Assembly (NCBI GenBank): GCA_947258615.1
Contig: CAMYIX010000069.1
Location: 1 to 53,887 of the forward strand
Reading direction: 5' to 3'
DNA: 53,887 nt
DNA from: an uncultured Ectothiorhodospiraceae bacterium
GTDB taxonomy: Bacteria; Pseudomonadota; Gammaproteobacteria; UBA9214
Positions 27,527-35,463 of this stretch are shown one piece after another (within the stretch, counting starts at the first letter, position 1; every line of letters begins with the position of its first letter). The translations under genes and the position numbers were made by a program. The notes under the pieces were generated by a model. The model worked only from the letters and a program-made list of their open reading frames with translations. It was not told the origin of the DNA and did not search any database.

Positions 27527-27901
27527 ATGAAACACATCAAAACGAAGTTGTTCACTTCTGTCGCCAGCGCCCTGGTCATCGGGGGACTCGCCATATCAAC
27601 CGGCGCAGCCGCGGCGGAGAAACAGGAGAAACCCAAGACCCCGCTGGAAAAAGGCAGGGATCTGACCATTACCATGTGCCAGGCGTGCCACCATTTCGAG
27701 GGAACGGACCAGGCCGGTACGCTCGGGCCACCCATCGTGGCAATGAAGGCCCGCTTCCCTGAAAAGAAAAGACTCTACGACATCATCTACGACCCCCATG
27801 TCGCCATCAAGTCGGACACCATGATGCCGCCATTTGGTCGCAACGGGCTCCTTGATGACAAGGAGATCGGGCTGATTATCGATTACCTCTACACGCTGTA
27901 G
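27527..27901 (+). CDS. soxX: Sulfur-oxidation c-type cytochrome SoxX
   Basis: SoxX is the monohaem electron acceptor of the periplasmic SoxAX complex, which attaches thiosulfate to SoxYZ. The 124-residue product has a signal peptide ending near residue 30, one haem site CQACH at 51-55, and the axial Met in the SoxX-like MMPPFGRNGLL segment (99-109). It ends DYLYTL, as family members do. A very strong ribosome site (GGAGGGGGAG) precedes it. soxA begins 108 bp later. Confidence 0.9.
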   Translation: MKHIKTKLFTSVASALVIGGLAISTGAAAAEKQEKPKTPLEKGRDLTITMCQACHHFEGTDQAGTLGPPIVAMKARFPEKKRLYDIIYDPHVAIKSDTMMPPFGRNGLLDDKEIGLIIDYLYTL

Positions 27902-28009
27902 GTAACAGGGCCGCATATACACACAACAGCTATCCGAGGTCTTTCTGTCCGGGGGCAAGCAGGCGTTTGCTGGCAGCAAGGACTCTAAAACTCTACGGAG
28001 GATGACACG

Positions 28010-28852
28010 ATGAAGACTTATATGGTACCGGCGATCTGCCTGGCGTTACTGGGCACGGGAGCGATAACCGCACTTGCAGCCTCTTCCCCCGATGCCGACC
28101 TCAAGATCTACCAGGAATACTTCAAGAAGAAGTTCCCGGATTTCACAGAAGAGAACTACAGTCTCGGCATGTACAACTTCAATGAAGACAAGCGCAGTCA
28201 GTGGGAAGCAATCATGGAATTCCCGCCCTACGAAACCGTGGTGGACAAGGGTGAGAAACTGTTCAATACCCCGTTCAAGAATGGCAAGACCTATGCGGAC
28301 TGCCTGGAAAACGGTGGCATCGGCATCAGCCACACCTACCCCCGCTTTGATGCCGGGTCTGGCAAGATCAGGACCCTGTCGATGGAAATCAACGACTGCC
28401 GGGAAAGCAATGGCGAGAAGCCGCTCAATCTGCTCAAGGGTGACCTGCCGACCCTGCTGGCCTACATGGCCGAGACCTCCCGCGGCAAGGCACTCGATAT
28501 CCAGGTGCCCGACGATCCGCGCGCACTGGCCGCCTACGAGGACGGGAAACGCATCTATTTCACGCGCCGAGGCCCGCGTGGCTTTGCCTGCTACAACTGC
28601 CACTGGGATGCGGCAGGCGGCCGTATCCGCGGTAATGAACTCAGTCCCGCCATCGGCCAGGCGACCAACTTCCCGGCCTACCGCTCCAAGTGGGGCGCGA
28701 TGGGCCCGATCCAGCGCCGCTACAAGGGCTGCATGAAGAACATCGGTGCCAAGCCGCTGAAGGCGGGCAGTGACGCCATGAACAACCTGGAGTACTTCCA
28801 TCGTTTCCTCAGCAACGGCCTGCCCTCGAGTGCGCCGAACAACCGGTTCTGA
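28010..28852 (+). CDS. soxA: Sulfur-oxidation cytochrome SoxA, single-haem form
   Basis: SoxA carries the active-site haem of SoxAX, where thiosulfate is coupled oxidatively to the SoxY cysteine. The 280-residue protein has a signal peptide (cut near residue 24) and one haem site, CYNCH at 194-198. Cys241 in RRYKGCMKNIGAKP matches the persulfidated cysteine ligand of the catalytic haem. The N-terminal domain keeps two cysteines (98, 130) but no CxxCH, as in SoxA types that have lost the first haem. A GGAGG ribosome site is just upstream. Confidence 0.92.
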   Translation: MKTYMVPAICLALLGTGAITALAASSPDADLKIYQEYFKKKFPDFTEENYSLGMYNFNEDKRSQWEAIMEFPPYETVVDKGEKLFNTPFKNGKTYADCLENGGIGISHTYPRFDAGSGKIRTLSMEINDCRESNGEKPLNLLKGDLPTLLAYMAETSRGKALDIQVPDDPRALAAYEDGKRIYFTRRGPRGFACYNCHWDAAGGRIRGNELSPAIGQATNFPAYRSKWGAMGPIQRRYKGCMKNIGAKPLKAGSDAMNNLEYFHRFLSNGLPSSAPNNRF

Positions 28853-28876
28853 ACACTGGATAAGGGAGATAGCATT

Positions 28877-29188
28877 ATGAAAATCCTAATGGCATTGATT
28901 GCAACCGTGGTGCTGTCTGTTCACACCGGCGTGCAGGCCGCGGATACCGATGCGCAGCAGGCCATCGATGCCGCCAAGGCAGCCCACAAGAAGGCGGATT
29001 CCCTGCAGGGCGGCTGGGTGAGCACCGACAAACTCATCAAGAAGGCAGAAGAGGCCAGCGCCAAGGGCGACGGGGACAAAGCCCTGAAGCTGGCAAAGAA
29101 AGCCCAGAAGGAAGCGGAGCTGGCCCACGCGCAGGCGGAGTACGAACTCAAGAACTGGGCACCACCACCCTACCTGATGCCGAAATAA
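28877..29188 (+). CDS. soxK: SoxAX-binding subunit SoxK
   Basis: The 103-residue secreted protein (signal peptide about 1-21) is Ala/Lys-rich and helical. It contains the pattern AAKAAHKKADSLQGGWVST then KLIKKAEEASAKGDGDKALK, typical of SoxK/SaxB, which binds SoxAX and raises its activity. It follows soxA by 24 bp with a GGGAGA ribosome site. Named from position and this pattern; there is no catalytic motif to confirm it. Confidence 0.8.
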   Translation: MKILMALIATVVLSVHTGVQAADTDAQQAIDAAKAAHKKADSLQGGWVSTDKLIKKAEEASAKGDGDKALKLAKKAQKEAELAHAQAEYELKNWAPPPYLMPK

Positions 29189-30558: not shown

Positions 30559-33500
30559 ATGAGCAAAAGCAGCGAGACATCTCAAGAAAACGAACTGAGC
30601 AATCCGCATTCCGGTGAAACGCCAGACGCGGGAAATGCTGTGGCGGGGCCGGCGCAGGCAAACCCGGCCGCACCCGGAGAGGGGGATGCAGGATTTGTAC
30701 CCAGGGTGGCTGAGCTGAACGAAGAGATCAATCGACTGTATGGAAAGATGCATGGCCTGGATGCGGCACTGCGTGAAAGTGATGACCGCGCCCGGCAGAT
30801 TGAAGAGAAGCGCGAGGCCATTGCCGAACTACAAGGCCAGATTGAAGAAAAAAACAGAGAAATCGATCGTCTGCAAAACAATATCGATGGCCTGCAGGGT
30901 TCTTTGCACGACCATGCGCAGCAGTTCAAGGAACAACTGAAAGACAAGCAGGCGGAGATTGGTGAACTGGAAGAAAAGGTATCGGAACGTGAGCAGGAAA
31001 TTAGTCGTCTGCATGGGCATGTAGAGGAAAAGGGGCTGGTCATCAATCAGCTGACTGAGCAGCTGGATCAGAGGAATCAGGAGGTCACCGGTCTGCATGG
31101 CGATATTGAGGACAGGCAGCAAACGATTGTCCGCATGGAGGGTGAGCTCGGTGAACTGGATACCTGTCTGAAGCAAGGCAAGGAACGCAGTGATACGCTA
31201 CTGGAAGAGAAGCAGGAGCTGATCACTCGACTGGAGTGGAAGGTCAAGGAGAAATACAAGGAGATCACCCAGCTGCATGGCAAGGTTCATGATCTGGGTG
31301 ATGAACTGCGTTACAGCGAGGAACGTGCCGAACAACTGCAGGAGGAAAAGGGGCGGGTCACTGATGAACTGGAGGGACGGATATCAGAAAAAGAGCAGGA
31401 GATCGCAGGACTGAACCAGCGTAACGGCGATATGGCAGAGCAAATCGCCAATCTGACCGGACAGTTGGATGAGCAGGCGCAGACCATCACCGGTCTGGAG
31501 CAACAGATCGTGGATTTGCAAAACAGCCTGCGTTTTGTCGAGGAGCAGGCCGAACAGCGGCTGGAAGAGAAGCAGCGTGAAATCGCCGGCCTGCATGAGC
31601 AGATCGAGGAGCTGAATGCGGCCCTGCATGTCAGCGAAGAGCAGGCCGCCCGGCAACTTGCGGAGAAGGGCGATGAAATTACCCGACTGGTTGCGGATCT
31701 GGAAGAGAAAGATCAGGTGCTGGCCCGGTTGCATGCCAGTGCCGCAGCGAAAGACGAGGTGATCGACGGGCTGGAAGAGAGTATTCAGCAATTGAACATG
31801 AGCATGCGTACTGTCGAAGAGCAGGCCGCACGGGAACTCGAAAGCAAGCAGCAGGAAGTCACCGAACTGGAATGGAGTGTCAAGGACAAGAATTCTGAAA
31901 TCAGCGAGCTGCATGGCAATATCCGTGATCTGAGTGCCGAGTTGAGCGCCAGCCAGGACCAGGCCGAAGAGCAACTGGAAGCGAAATCACGGGACATGGA
32001 GCAGCTGGAAAACCGTATTCAGCTGCTACAGCAGGAGCAGCGCGAGAGCGCCGAGCAGTCCGGTCAGGAGTTACAGGAGAAACGTAAACTTGTCAGCCAG
32101 CTGCAGGCCAGGGAGGAACACCTGAACAAGGCCCTGCATGACAGCAAGCAAGGCGCAGCAGAACAGCTGGCAGAGATGACGCGGAAGCTCGAGGACAAGA
32201 TCCAGACGATCAGCGGGCTGGAGCAGCAGCTTGAGGCGCAGGAGGCAAGCATGAGTGCCCGCGTCGAGAACGAGAACCGGGAACTGCAGCTCAAGGACCG
32301 GACGATCGGCGAACTGACCGCGCAACTAGAAGAACAGGCCGAGGAACTCACCGGTCTGCATGGCACGATCCGAGATATCGGTGCGGAACTTGAGGCCAGA
32401 CAGGCAAACAGGGCCGCGCTGGTGAAGGAGCATGAACAGGAAGCGCGCCAGTTCAAAGACAAGGTCAATCAGCAGTCATTCGAGCTGCAGAGTCTGGCTG
32501 AACATGCCAGGCAAAATCAGGAAGAACAGGCGCAAGCGATCTGCGAGCTTGAAGAAAAGCTCAAGCAGCAGACAGAAGCCAGCAACGGCGACGCCGGAAT
32601 AATTGCCCACGAGCTCGAAGAGCAGCAGGAGATCATCAAGCAACTCGATGAGCAGCTGAAAGAAAAGGACGATGAGATAGGCAAGCTGAATTCCACCCTG
32701 GAAGACCTGAACGCAAGGCTGGAAGAAGGCGGGGCGCGCGTCGCCGATGAGGCCAGGAAGCATTCCAGTGAGGTAAGTCAACTCAAGGCGCAACTCAAGC
32801 AGAAAACAGTTGAAACGCGGGACAGTGCCAGGCTTGCAGCGCAGCAGCTGAAAGAGAAGGACAGGGTCATCAAGGACAAGGCGCAGCTGATTGGCCAGCT
32901 CGAGGATCAGGTCCGGGACCTGGAGGTGGCTGTGCACTCAGCCACAGAGACGGCAGAGCAGCTGAAGCAGGAGGCCGGCCGGCCACAAGGACAGCTTGAA
33001 AAACCCGGGCGTACAGATTCCACTGAGCAGGATGAGGTCAGCCCGGCGGAGAGCCGTGACAGGAGTGATTCAGCATCAAGTCAGAAAGAGCAGGAAGTCG
33101 CCAGGTTTCAAGGTAAGGAGGTCGCCCGCCTGCAGCAACATATTCAGGAGCTGAAGATCGCTTTGAGCGAGAAGGCCGAGCGTATGCGATCGAAAAAACA
33201 GGAAAATGAAGGAGATCCTGAGCCGGTAACCAACACCATCAAGACCCTGATGGAAGACAAGCTGAAGAAATTGAGTACCCTGGACATGCTGACCGGGATG
33301 ATGAACCGACAGTTTTTCATGAAGGTCCTGGATGAATCAGTCAGCACTAGGAGTGATGACGAATCTGAGCGGTCGGTATTCTATATCCTGCTGGATAATT
33401 TCAGGGAAATCCGTGACGAGGTCGGGGTGTCTGACAGTGATGTGGTCCTGCGCAATGCCGCCAGTATCATCCAGTCCGGTATTGGCGAGCGAGATATCGT

Positions 33501-34581
33501 GTCACGCTTTGGCTACTATGTCTTTACGGTCCTGCACTACAATAATGATGCAATGACTACCCACGAGTTTGCCGCAAGAATATTGCGTAACCTGGAGGAA
33601 CATACCTTCAGTGTTGGTGATAACAGCGTCAGGGTAAGGGCAAGTATCGGGATCAGTACTGTCATCGGTGGCGAGCATAATGCCGAGGGCCTGATCCTGC
33701 GCGCCGACCTTGCCTGCGAGGTGGCCCGCTCGTCCAGTGACGCCAGGATCTACACCCACAATGCCGCGGTAGAGGAACAGCTGGCGCCGGAGCATGAGGC
33801 GGAATCGCACCTGATGGTGAAGAAGACGCTGCAGGATGAGCGCTTCTACCTGGTGTATCAGCCGATAGTCAGCCTGTCTGAAGACAAGCGACAGCGTTAC
33901 GAGGTGTTATTGAGAATTCTTGATGAGGAAGGCGAGGTTGTCCTGCCGAGCCAGTTCCTCGATGTGGCAAAATCCATAGGACTTGGTGGTGAGATAGATA
34001 AATGGGTGATCGACAATGCCTTTGCAAGGCTTGCTGACATGCAGCGTCAGGATGCAGACGCCACTTTCTATATCAAGGTCTCGGAAAAGACAATTGCCGA
34101 TCAGGGGATGATTCCTTGGCTGGATGCGAAACTGAAGGAATACCGGTTACAGAGAGAAAACGTAATTATCGAGGTTGCGGAAGAGGCCGTGCTCGATGAT
34201 ATGGAGAACAGCATGGCGTTCGTGGGCGCCCTGCATGAGCTGGGGTGTAAGGTGGCGCTGGAACACTATGGTGCGTCCAGTCCACCGCAGGTCCTCAAGC
34301 GTCTTCCGGTGGATGTCCTGAAGGTGAATGGCGGCTTGATTAGTGGCATGGCGGTGAACAAGGAAGACCAGGTCACGGTAAAAACCATTATAGAACTGGC
34401 GCGCAATCTCGGCATGGAATGTGTTGCCGAAAAGGTAGAGGATACCGCCGTCCTTGCGCTGCTATGGCAGTACGGTGTCCAGTTTGTTCAGGGAAACTTC
34501 GTCCAGATACCGAGCAGGAACCTCGACTACAATTTCGAGGCCAGCGTCACGGGTAACGAATCCGGTACCTTCGCCGCCTAG
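30559..34581 (+). CDS. Giant coiled-coil protein with degenerate GGDEF and EVL (FimX-like) domains
   Basis: A 1340-residue cytoplasmic protein with no signal peptide or membrane segment. Residues about 45-880 are nearly unbroken Gln/Glu-rich coiled coil with recurring units (LEWKVKEKYKEITQLHGK and LEWSVKDKNSEISELHGN). A GGDEF-like domain (about 903-1065) has GYYVF at 985-989 instead of GGDEF. An EAL-like domain (about 1085-1330) has EVL at 1115-1117 and EHYG at 1235 where active enzymes have DDFG. Catalysis in either domain is unlikely. EVL, YLVYQPIVSL, LKRLPVDVLKVNG and VQGNFVQIPS recall FimX, a c-di-GMP-binding regulator of type IV pili. Role as a c-di-GMP-sensing scaffold is inference. It may instead start at a GTG ten codons upstream (30529). 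Confidence 0.85.
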   Translation: MSKSSETSQENELSNPHSGETPDAGNAVAGPAQANPAAPGEGDAGFVPRVAELNEEINRLYGKMHGLDAALRESDDRARQIEEKREAIAELQGQIEEKNREIDRLQNNIDGLQGSLHDHAQQFKEQLKDKQAEIGELEEKVSEREQEISRLHGHVEEKGLVINQLTEQLDQRNQEVTGLHGDIEDRQQTIVRMEGELGELDTCLKQGKERSDTLLEEKQELITRLEWKVKEKYKEITQLHGKVHDLGDELRYSEERAEQLQEEKGRVTDELEGRISEKEQEIAGLNQRNGDMAEQIANLTGQLDEQAQTITGLEQQIVDLQNSLRFVEEQAEQRLEEKQREIAGLHEQIEELNAALHVSEEQAARQLAEKGDEITRLVADLEEKDQVLARLHASAAAKDEVIDGLEESIQQLNMSMRTVEEQAARELESKQQEVTELEWSVKDKNSEISELHGNIRDLSAELSASQDQAEEQLEAKSRDMEQLENRIQLLQQEQRESAEQSGQELQEKRKLVSQLQAREEHLNKALHDSKQGAAEQLAEMTRKLEDKIQTISGLEQQLEAQEASMSARVENENRELQLKDRTIGELTAQLEEQAEELTGLHGTIRDIGAELEARQANRAALVKEHEQEARQFKDKVNQQSFELQSLAEHARQNQEEQAQAICELEEKLKQQTEASNGDAGIIAHELEEQQEIIKQLDEQLKEKDDEIGKLNSTLEDLNARLEEGGARVADEARKHSSEVSQLKAQLKQKTVETRDSARLAAQQLKEKDRVIKDKAQLIGQLEDQVRDLEVAVHSATETAEQLKQEAGRPQGQLEKPGRTDSTEQDEVSPAESRDRSDSASSQKEQEVARFQGKEVARLQQHIQELKIALSEKAERMRSKKQENEGDPEPVTNTIKTLMEDKLKKLSTLDMLTGMMNRQFFMKVLDESVSTRSDDESERSVFYILLDNFREIRDEVGVSDSDVVLRNAASIIQSGIGERDIVSRFGYYVFTVLHYNNDAMTTHEFAARILRNLEEHTFSVGDNSVRVRASIGISTVIGGEHNAEGLILRADLACEVARSSSDARIYTHNAAVEEQLAPEHEAESHLMVKKTLQDERFYLVYQPIVSLSEDKRQRYEVLLRILDEEGEVVLPSQFLDVAKSIGLGGEIDKWVIDNAFARLADMQRQDADATFYIKVSEKTIADQGMIPWLDAKLKEYRLQRENVIIEVAEEAVLDDMENSMAFVGALHELGCKVALEHYGASSPPQVLKRLPVDVLKVNGGLISGMAVNKEDQVTVKTIIELARNLGMECVAEKVEDTAVLALLWQYGVQFVQGNFVQIPSRNLDYNFEASVTGNESGTFAA

Positions 34582-34750: not shown

Positions 34751-34783
34751 TCGTTACTGGTTTCCGGCTTACGTCGGAATGAC
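34751..34783. repeat. MITE-like repeat, partial copy 3 (right end)
   Basis: The stretch CGTTACTGGTTTCCGGC ... GTCGGAATGAC matches the right half of the 87-bp core seen at 13540 and 29236. Its terminal C is the first base of the stop codon of the neighbouring minus-strand gene. Confidence 0.6.
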
Positions 34784-35463
34784 TAAGAGCGGGTACAGCG
34801 GCAGGCCAGCTCCAGCCGCCAGGCGAGTTGCTGCAGGCTGGTGGCGCCGAAGGTCGCGGCGCCGGACTTCAGGCTGTGGGCCTCGCGTTGCAGTGTCTCC
34901 AGGTCCAGCGGCGACAACAGGCGGTTTATCGCACCCACACGTCGCGCGGTTTCCCTGCGGAATGCAGCCAGCAAGCGCGGCATGGCCGCCACACTGGTGT
35001 CGCGTTCGAGTTGTTCCAGCTGGCGGTTATCGAGTGTCGCCTGCGGTGCTGCCGCCGCGTCGGGCAGCCACTGGTCGAGCACCTCGAGCAGTGGTTGGCG
35101 TCCGAGCGGACCGGCAAGGCATACATCCATACCGGCTGCCAGGCAGGCTTCCTCGCAGTCAGCCTGGTGCCCGCTCGTGATGGCGATAATGGGCATGCGA
35201 CCCCTGTCGCCGGGCAGTTCGCGGATGGCGCCGCTGGTCTGTGTCGTGTCCAGTTCCTGCAGGCCGGTCGCCATTATCACCAGTTGATAGATACAGTTCT
35301 TTGCGGCTTCTACCGCGGCCGGCCCGTTCGCCATCGTGTCGACGTGATGGCCGCGGTCCTCGAGCATGGCGAGCAGGCCGCGGGTTTCCGTAGCGTTTTC
35401 TCCCAAGGCCAGCAGGATGCGCGCCCCCCGCCTGGATGGCCGGGATGCGATCGCGACTTCCAT
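34783..35463 (-). CDS. Degenerate receiver plus HPt protein, apparently cut short at a repeat
   Basis: The 226-residue product has a receiver-like domain (about 14-133) followed by an HPt domain (about 145-226). The receiver lacks its acidic pair (ALGEN where family members have VDDN), the phosphoacceptor Asp (Ala65 in IMATGLQELD) and the conserved Lys (Gly118 in CLAGPLG), so it should not take a phosphate. The HPt histidine is intact (His196 in REAHSLKSGAATFGA). The protein stops soon after, about one helix short of a normal HPt, where a repeat end supplies the stop codon. It may be the tail of a former hybrid kinase. Partner unknown. Confidence 0.75.
   Translation of the reverse strand: MEVAIASRPSRRGARILLALGENATETRGLLAMLEDRGHHVDTMANGPAAVEAAKNCIYQLVIMATGLQELDTTQTSGAIRELPGDRGRMPIIAITSGHQADCEEACLAAGMDVCLAGPLGRQPLLEVLDQWLPDAAAAPQATLDNRQLEQLERDTSVAAMPRLLAAFRRETARRVGAINRLLSPLDLETLQREAHSLKSGAATFGATSLQQLAWRLELACRCTRS

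Follow-up and report, generated by a model that had tools for sequence, protein, structure and literature searches.

A FimX-type head carried on a coiled coil of about 800 residues in an uncultured Ectothiorhodospiraceae bacterium

Introduction

What does a FimX-type head do when the half that normally precedes it has given way to a rod? FimX of Pseudomonas aeruginosa and Xanthomonas is a protein of about 700 amino acids (aa) in which REC/PAS domains are followed by a degenerate GGDEF-EAL head that has no active site and ends in a D/NYxF tail. The REC half has been linked to dimerization and polar placement (PMC5595344, PMC11656802), and the Xanthomonas protein acts by way of PilZ (PMC8389850). 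Since polar P. aeruginosa FimX also requires the EAL domain (PMC5595344), the N-terminal half is not the sole targeting part. The window analyzed here, a stretch of 53,887 nucleotides from an uncultured Ectothiorhodospiraceae bacterium (GenBank contig CAMYIX010000069.1), encodes a 1340-aa protein that shares the degenerate head and the tail but has a coiled coil of about 800 residues instead of REC/PAS.

Results

The gene and the anatomy of its product are listed below, with the basis of each assignment in parentheses.

30559..34581, + strand: gene of the coiled-coil FimX-type protein, ATG to stop, 1340 aa; solitary, with neighbors on the opposite strand
30559..30693, + strand: residues 1-45, Pro/Gly-rich, probably disordered, without a membrane segment (sequence, coil scoring)
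30694..32982, + strand: residues 46-808, main coiled coil (coil scoring, periodicity, internal similarity, low-confidence model)
32983..33081, + strand: residues 809-841, Pro/Ser-rich hinge, weakly conserved and indel-prone (coil scoring, ortholog alignment)
33082..33216, + strand: residues 842-886, second short coil toward the head (coil scoring, low-confidence model)
33277..33735, + strand: residues 907-1059, degenerate GGDEF domain (Pfam PF00990, E 1.6e-22)
33511..33525, + strand: residues 985-989, GYYVF instead of GGDEF (alignment)
33820..34506, + strand: residues 1088-1316, FimX-type EAL domain (Pfam PF00563, E 1.8e-55; head model)
33901..33909, + strand: residues 1115-1117, EVL motif, identical to P. 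aeruginosa FimX 475-477 (alignment)
34075..34077, + strand: Lys1173, where active EAL domains have the metal-site Asn (alignment)
34261..34266, + strand: Glu-His 1235-1236, at the position of the catalytic Asp-Asp (alignment)

The ATG at 30559 is preceded by an AGGGA-like ribosome site and is backed by an M-K/S-x-SET start common to two orthologs; identity to the orthologs in residues 1-45 is only 36-57%. A Pfam search of the whole 1340-aa protein found no REC or PAS domain ahead of the GGDEF-EAL head, while ordinary FimX proteins of the family carry PAS and sometimes REC, which bears out the proposal of the initial annotation that a coil has replaced these domains. The Pfam result and the ortholog starts together rule out a wrong start hiding REC, PAS, or a membrane segment. 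Coil scoring, pN/pS, and periodicity rule out a chance or low-complexity reading frame, and an assembly fusion of coil and head was rejected because the same fusion is present in two other genomes. No NCBIfam equivalog model reached its cut-off for the protein, and no tandem repeats were found at the DNA level.

In COILS-type scoring with a reconstructed matrix, for which shuffling served as the check, 715 of the 805 core residues scored as coil; 50 shuffles gave 136 on average and 269 at most. The coil comprises residues 46-808 (763 aa) and 842-886, about 800 residues in total; the long coil proposed at the outset is thus real, but at about 840 residues it had been overestimated, and the hinge at 809-841 interrupts it. 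Taking 0.1485 nm per residue, a straight main coil would be about 113 nm long. The estimate of a rod over 100 nm long holds for a straight coil, whereas its comparison with a cell radius or more was excessive, the usual cell radius being 250-500 nm. Bends in the rod are possible, given 39 glycines in the coil and the hinge. AlphaFold placed helices at residues 145-380, 407-673, 679-802, and 841-877 (one chain, residues 142-1340; mean pLDDT 60, low confidence).

The hydrophobic power of the main coil was 11.2 at 3.54 residues per turn, compared with at most 1.6 in 200 shuffles and at most 9.2 in 300 block shuffles (blocks of 24-47 residues); as it exceeds the block-shuffle maximum, the hydrophobic phase is held across all 763 residues. 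Along the coil there are 15 shifts of the best-scoring heptad register, 13 being by +3, the signature of stutters. Similarity within the coil is highest at offsets of 46 and 32 residues, the latter being four heptads plus four. Across the coil, 59% of the core face is invariant, against 43% of the outer face. A single alpha-helix in place of a coiled coil is unlikely, because Leu and Ile keep to one face.

The best solved match of the head was P. aeruginosa FimX (4j40, E 1.4e-63), in agreement with its first description as FimX-like, followed by PA0861 (E 7e-50). A head model built from 36 relatives reached a pLDDT of 85, and its EAL domain superposed on the c-di-GMP-bound EAL domain of FimX (3hv8) with a TM score of 0.94 (target length) at 1.5 Angstrom. 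In a fold search with both domains, PA0861 and other GGDEF-EAL tandems ranked top by E value, but whole-chain superposition was poor, so that the search backs the EAL match only. The D/NYxF tail of FimX heads is retained at the C terminus.

Alignment (FimX numbering) showed Q461, E475-V-L477, R479, D507, K616, and Q671 to be kept in the head, the EVL motif being shared with P. aeruginosa FimX, and H533 to be changed to Lys, S595-Q596 to Glu-His, and F652 to Lys; the GGDEF position, GDSIF in FimX, reads GYYVF. Most c-di-GMP-contact residues of FimX are therefore retained, but not Phe652, which stacks on guanine in FimX (PMC3527489). The substitution of GYYVF, EVL, and EHYG for the catalytic motifs, noted from the start, was seen on alignment, and no intact catalytic site was found. 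The head is predicted to be catalytically dead, and turnover of c-di-GMP is unlikely since the Asn and Asp-Asp of an active EAL domain such as PA0861 are Lys and Glu-His here. Because Lys and Glu-His at the metal site are common to every family FimX aligned, activity was probably lost before the coil was gained.

Orthologs were present in two congeneric genomes (L055 and L056; 1343 and 1353 residues), with 75-76% identity in the head and 57-64% in the coil. The three-species alignment was free of gaps over residues 46-648, and the sole large indel in the coil was one of 32 residues, one repeat unit, in L056. Against these orthologs, pN/pS was 0.34-0.40 for the coil (first 600 residues and whole), 0.5-0.8 for the hinge, and 0.18-0.22 for the EAL domain, figures that are rough because dS is near 1 between the orthologs. 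By this measure the coil is under purifying selection. A search for related loci with the head as the query returned one true relative, L012.

Just downstream of the gene, on the opposite strand, lies a gene for a receiver plus Hpt protein (34783-35463, -), and next come genes for a transglycosylase SLT, an inositol monophosphatase, and a pyridine nucleotide oxidoreductase, which appear to be retained downstream in the ortholog loci. Elsewhere in the window, at 27527-29188 (+), are two cytochrome genes resembling soxX and soxA, the second matching the SoxA-TsdA cytochrome family, and after them comes a 103-aa protein without a Pfam match. The soxX/soxA-like genes suggest that the organism may be a sulfur oxidizer.

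Three congeneric genomes carry a sister paralog, here called type 2 (L044:5278-10605, L045:4199-9419, and L057:5870-10329). It has the same head and a coil that starts alike (LVSEIEQEINQLHGKVHYLDAAYxES in L044 versus FVPRVAELNEEINRLYGKMHGLDAALRES in the window protein), but differs in its N-terminal membrane segment, 31-residue repeats, a period of about 3.45 residues per turn, and a coil that is longer and varies widely in length between species. In L044 it is a single frame of 1775 aa that starts with MRILIGVFIMLAGLMAATISALKS; the membrane segment was assigned by eye, and since basic residues come after it, the coil should be cytoplasmic. The L044 coil consists of 31-residue units (28 + 3) with a period of 3.455 and a power of 16.0, almost none being found at 3.5; the periodicity of type 2 coils, about 3.45 residues per turn, persists in phase for up to 1200 residues. 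Whereas the window protein has stutters, the type 2 coil is thus built with the opposite, stammers, in bulk; coils departing from heptads mostly lie above 3.5, and stammers over-wind the helix (PMC4786415). Two of the three genomes have the type 2 gene as two separate frames, broken near residue 528 (L045:5595-5785 and L057:7430-7490). One break is at an AAAA run and one at a joined 21-nucleotide repeat, due to assembly error or a real split.

In a maximum-likelihood tree, the six coil proteins formed one clade (99/100) within the FimX group of the family, and both subtypes were supported at 100/100. Ordinary FimX proteins of about 715 residues are encoded in the genus alongside the coil proteins, and FimX-like paralogs number as many as four in one genome. 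The order sample consisted of one family (23 genomes). In the class, 63 of 370 genomes gave a strong match, the FimX-like ones being mostly about 700 residues long, and in the phylum sample only two others among 397 genomes passed the threshold, both of about 710 residues. None of the other long frames checked had a long coil (at most 39 coil residues each). A widespread architecture was not seen in these 370 class and 397 phylum genomes, and the combination, suspected from the outset to be unusual, is rare in the family, class, and phylum samples alike. Only two unstudied congeneric orthologs match the window protein in coil length, so no close well-studied homolog of that length came to light. 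Among the papers retrieved from the open literature, none describes, by title and abstract, a FimX with a long coil. Another genus of the family encodes a 1121-aa FimX-like protein with 453 coil residues on a long branch (L058:6463-9828); its coil may be a second, independent gain.

In the genus, PilB and PilQ were found above curated cut-offs; in the incomplete genome of the window, only PilQ was. A PilZ gene lies beside holB in two congeneric genomes (match to Xanthomonas PilZ, E 2.9e-50), and its product keeps Ile10, Phe49, and Leu51, the residues with which Xanthomonas PilZ holds FimX (PMC8389850). On the FimX side, the PilZ-contact residues reported to be critical in Xanthomonas are W445, M487, M488, and A493 (PMC11656802); as read by eye from the alignment, the window protein has Leu, Val, Val, and about Gln at these positions. 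No pilus gene adjoins the coil-FimX gene in the window.

Discussion

The explanation we favor, at even odds (probability about 0.5), is that of a c-di-GMP-gated effector of the pilus motor, from the FimX lineage and with a dead head, in which the REC-PAS targeting half has become a coiled-coil scaffold or tether. The protein is a FimX by descent and, probably, in the mode of action of its head, but it is set apart from FimX proper as it has no REC-PAS, a defining feature of FimX. This explanation builds on the observed anatomy, FimX descent, and selection on the coil, and on the occurrence in the genus of PilB, PilQ, and a PilZ compatible with FimX. We infer that the protein binds c-di-GMP, dimerizes, docks by its coil, and acts on PilZ/PilB. 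The coiled coil of about 113 nm, taking over from the REC-PAS half, would most likely dimerize the protein and serve as a tether or scaffold, docked by its N-terminal part at a fixed site. From there the paired heads would reach out and, when bound to c-di-GMP, engage the pilus extension motor via PilZ and PilB. With REC-PAS removed and a rod in its stead, the job of the head would most likely be kept and its place changed. The sister paralog would act likewise from a membrane anchor. As the genus also retains ordinary FimX proteins, the paralog may have a new job. Also counting against the favored explanation are the Lys at the Phe652 position, the changed PilZ-contact positions, the lack of an adjoining pilus gene, the part that the EAL domain plays in polar placement of P. 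aeruginosa FimX, and the glycines of a coil modeled with low confidence.

A different partner for the head is one of two unlikely alternatives. The head would then be a c-di-GMP receptor, or a pure scaffold, for a process other than the pilus, its partner having changed after duplication; the multiplicity of FimX-like paralogs (as many as four in one genome), the lack of a pilus gene neighbor, and the loss of the PilZ-contact residues reported to be critical in Xanthomonas FimX speak for this, while FimX features are retained up to the C-terminal D/NYxF tail, and the pilus motor, the secretin, and PilZ are all present in the genus. Equally improbable in our estimate is polymerization of the coil, laterally or by its ends, as in crescentin or other proteins rich in coiled coil, to form a filament or cap clustering many c-di-GMP-sensing heads. 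The long regular repeat with its phase-coherent pattern and the weak matches to Filament, crescentin-rod, and tropomyosin models would fit, but these matches are far below the cut-offs (Rod_CreS, 16.9 bits against 100) and of a kind that long coils commonly give, and the C-terminal heads are large. We consider residual slow hydrolysis of c-di-GMP by the head highly improbable: the head retains the Glu of EVL, a second Glu (Q565 position), a Lys, and a Gln, and full-length FimX acts very weakly on a model substrate (PMC3527489), yet the metal-site Asn is Lys and the Asp-Asp is Glu-His in all family members aligned.

The initial annotation had suggested that the rod could measure distance. This is the weakest step of the mechanism, since length is conserved in the three orthologs and not in the sister paralog, where it is widely variable, and as a claim it is unsupported. 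A molecular ruler of fixed length, spacing the pole, the motor, and another site, is accordingly very doubtful. The equal coil length in three species at a dS near 1, gap-free over 46-648 and with a single large indel of one repeat unit, would suit it; against it stand the small number of species (three), the difference of 32 residues (about 5 nm) in one of them, the variation of the sister coil between species, and the bending that glycines and hinge permit. Hardly less speculative is a two-part distance system, in which the rod of the cytoplasmic receptor would be fixed at about 113 nm and that of its membrane-anchored partner would be longer. With their 32- and 31-residue units under- and over-twisting the supercoil, the two would together gate pilus motors by reach and c-di-GMP. 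With regard to the favored tether, the protein probably holds the sensor at a distance, or bridges it, rather than making or breaking c-di-GMP.

Some polar regulators share single traits with the protein. TipF and PopA of Caulobacter, unlike the window protein, have no giant coil and play a role in flagellum placement or the cell cycle. Both are enzymatically inactive GGDEF/EAL proteins acting at the pole (PMC3764195). FrzS of Myxococcus xanthus, taken here as an analogy and as a precedent for the favored tether, is a regulator of pilus motility with a long coiled coil, which alone suffices for localization to the pole (PMC11580455); in contrast to the window protein, it has a pseudo-receiver domain and no c-di-GMP domain.

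In the samples taken, the architecture appears confined to a small bacterial group, the FimX head being known and the variant with a coil apparently new. The coil itself is a very long phase-coherent one for bacteria, and the bulk stammers of the sister are rare among known coiled coils. The natural rod-head chimera addresses the question of how N-terminal targeting and c-di-GMP sensing by the head are coupled in FimX. With only a rod for its N-terminal half, it offers a clean test of whether placement of the head is the whole role of that half, and it has been retained in several species, alongside a membrane-anchored sister.
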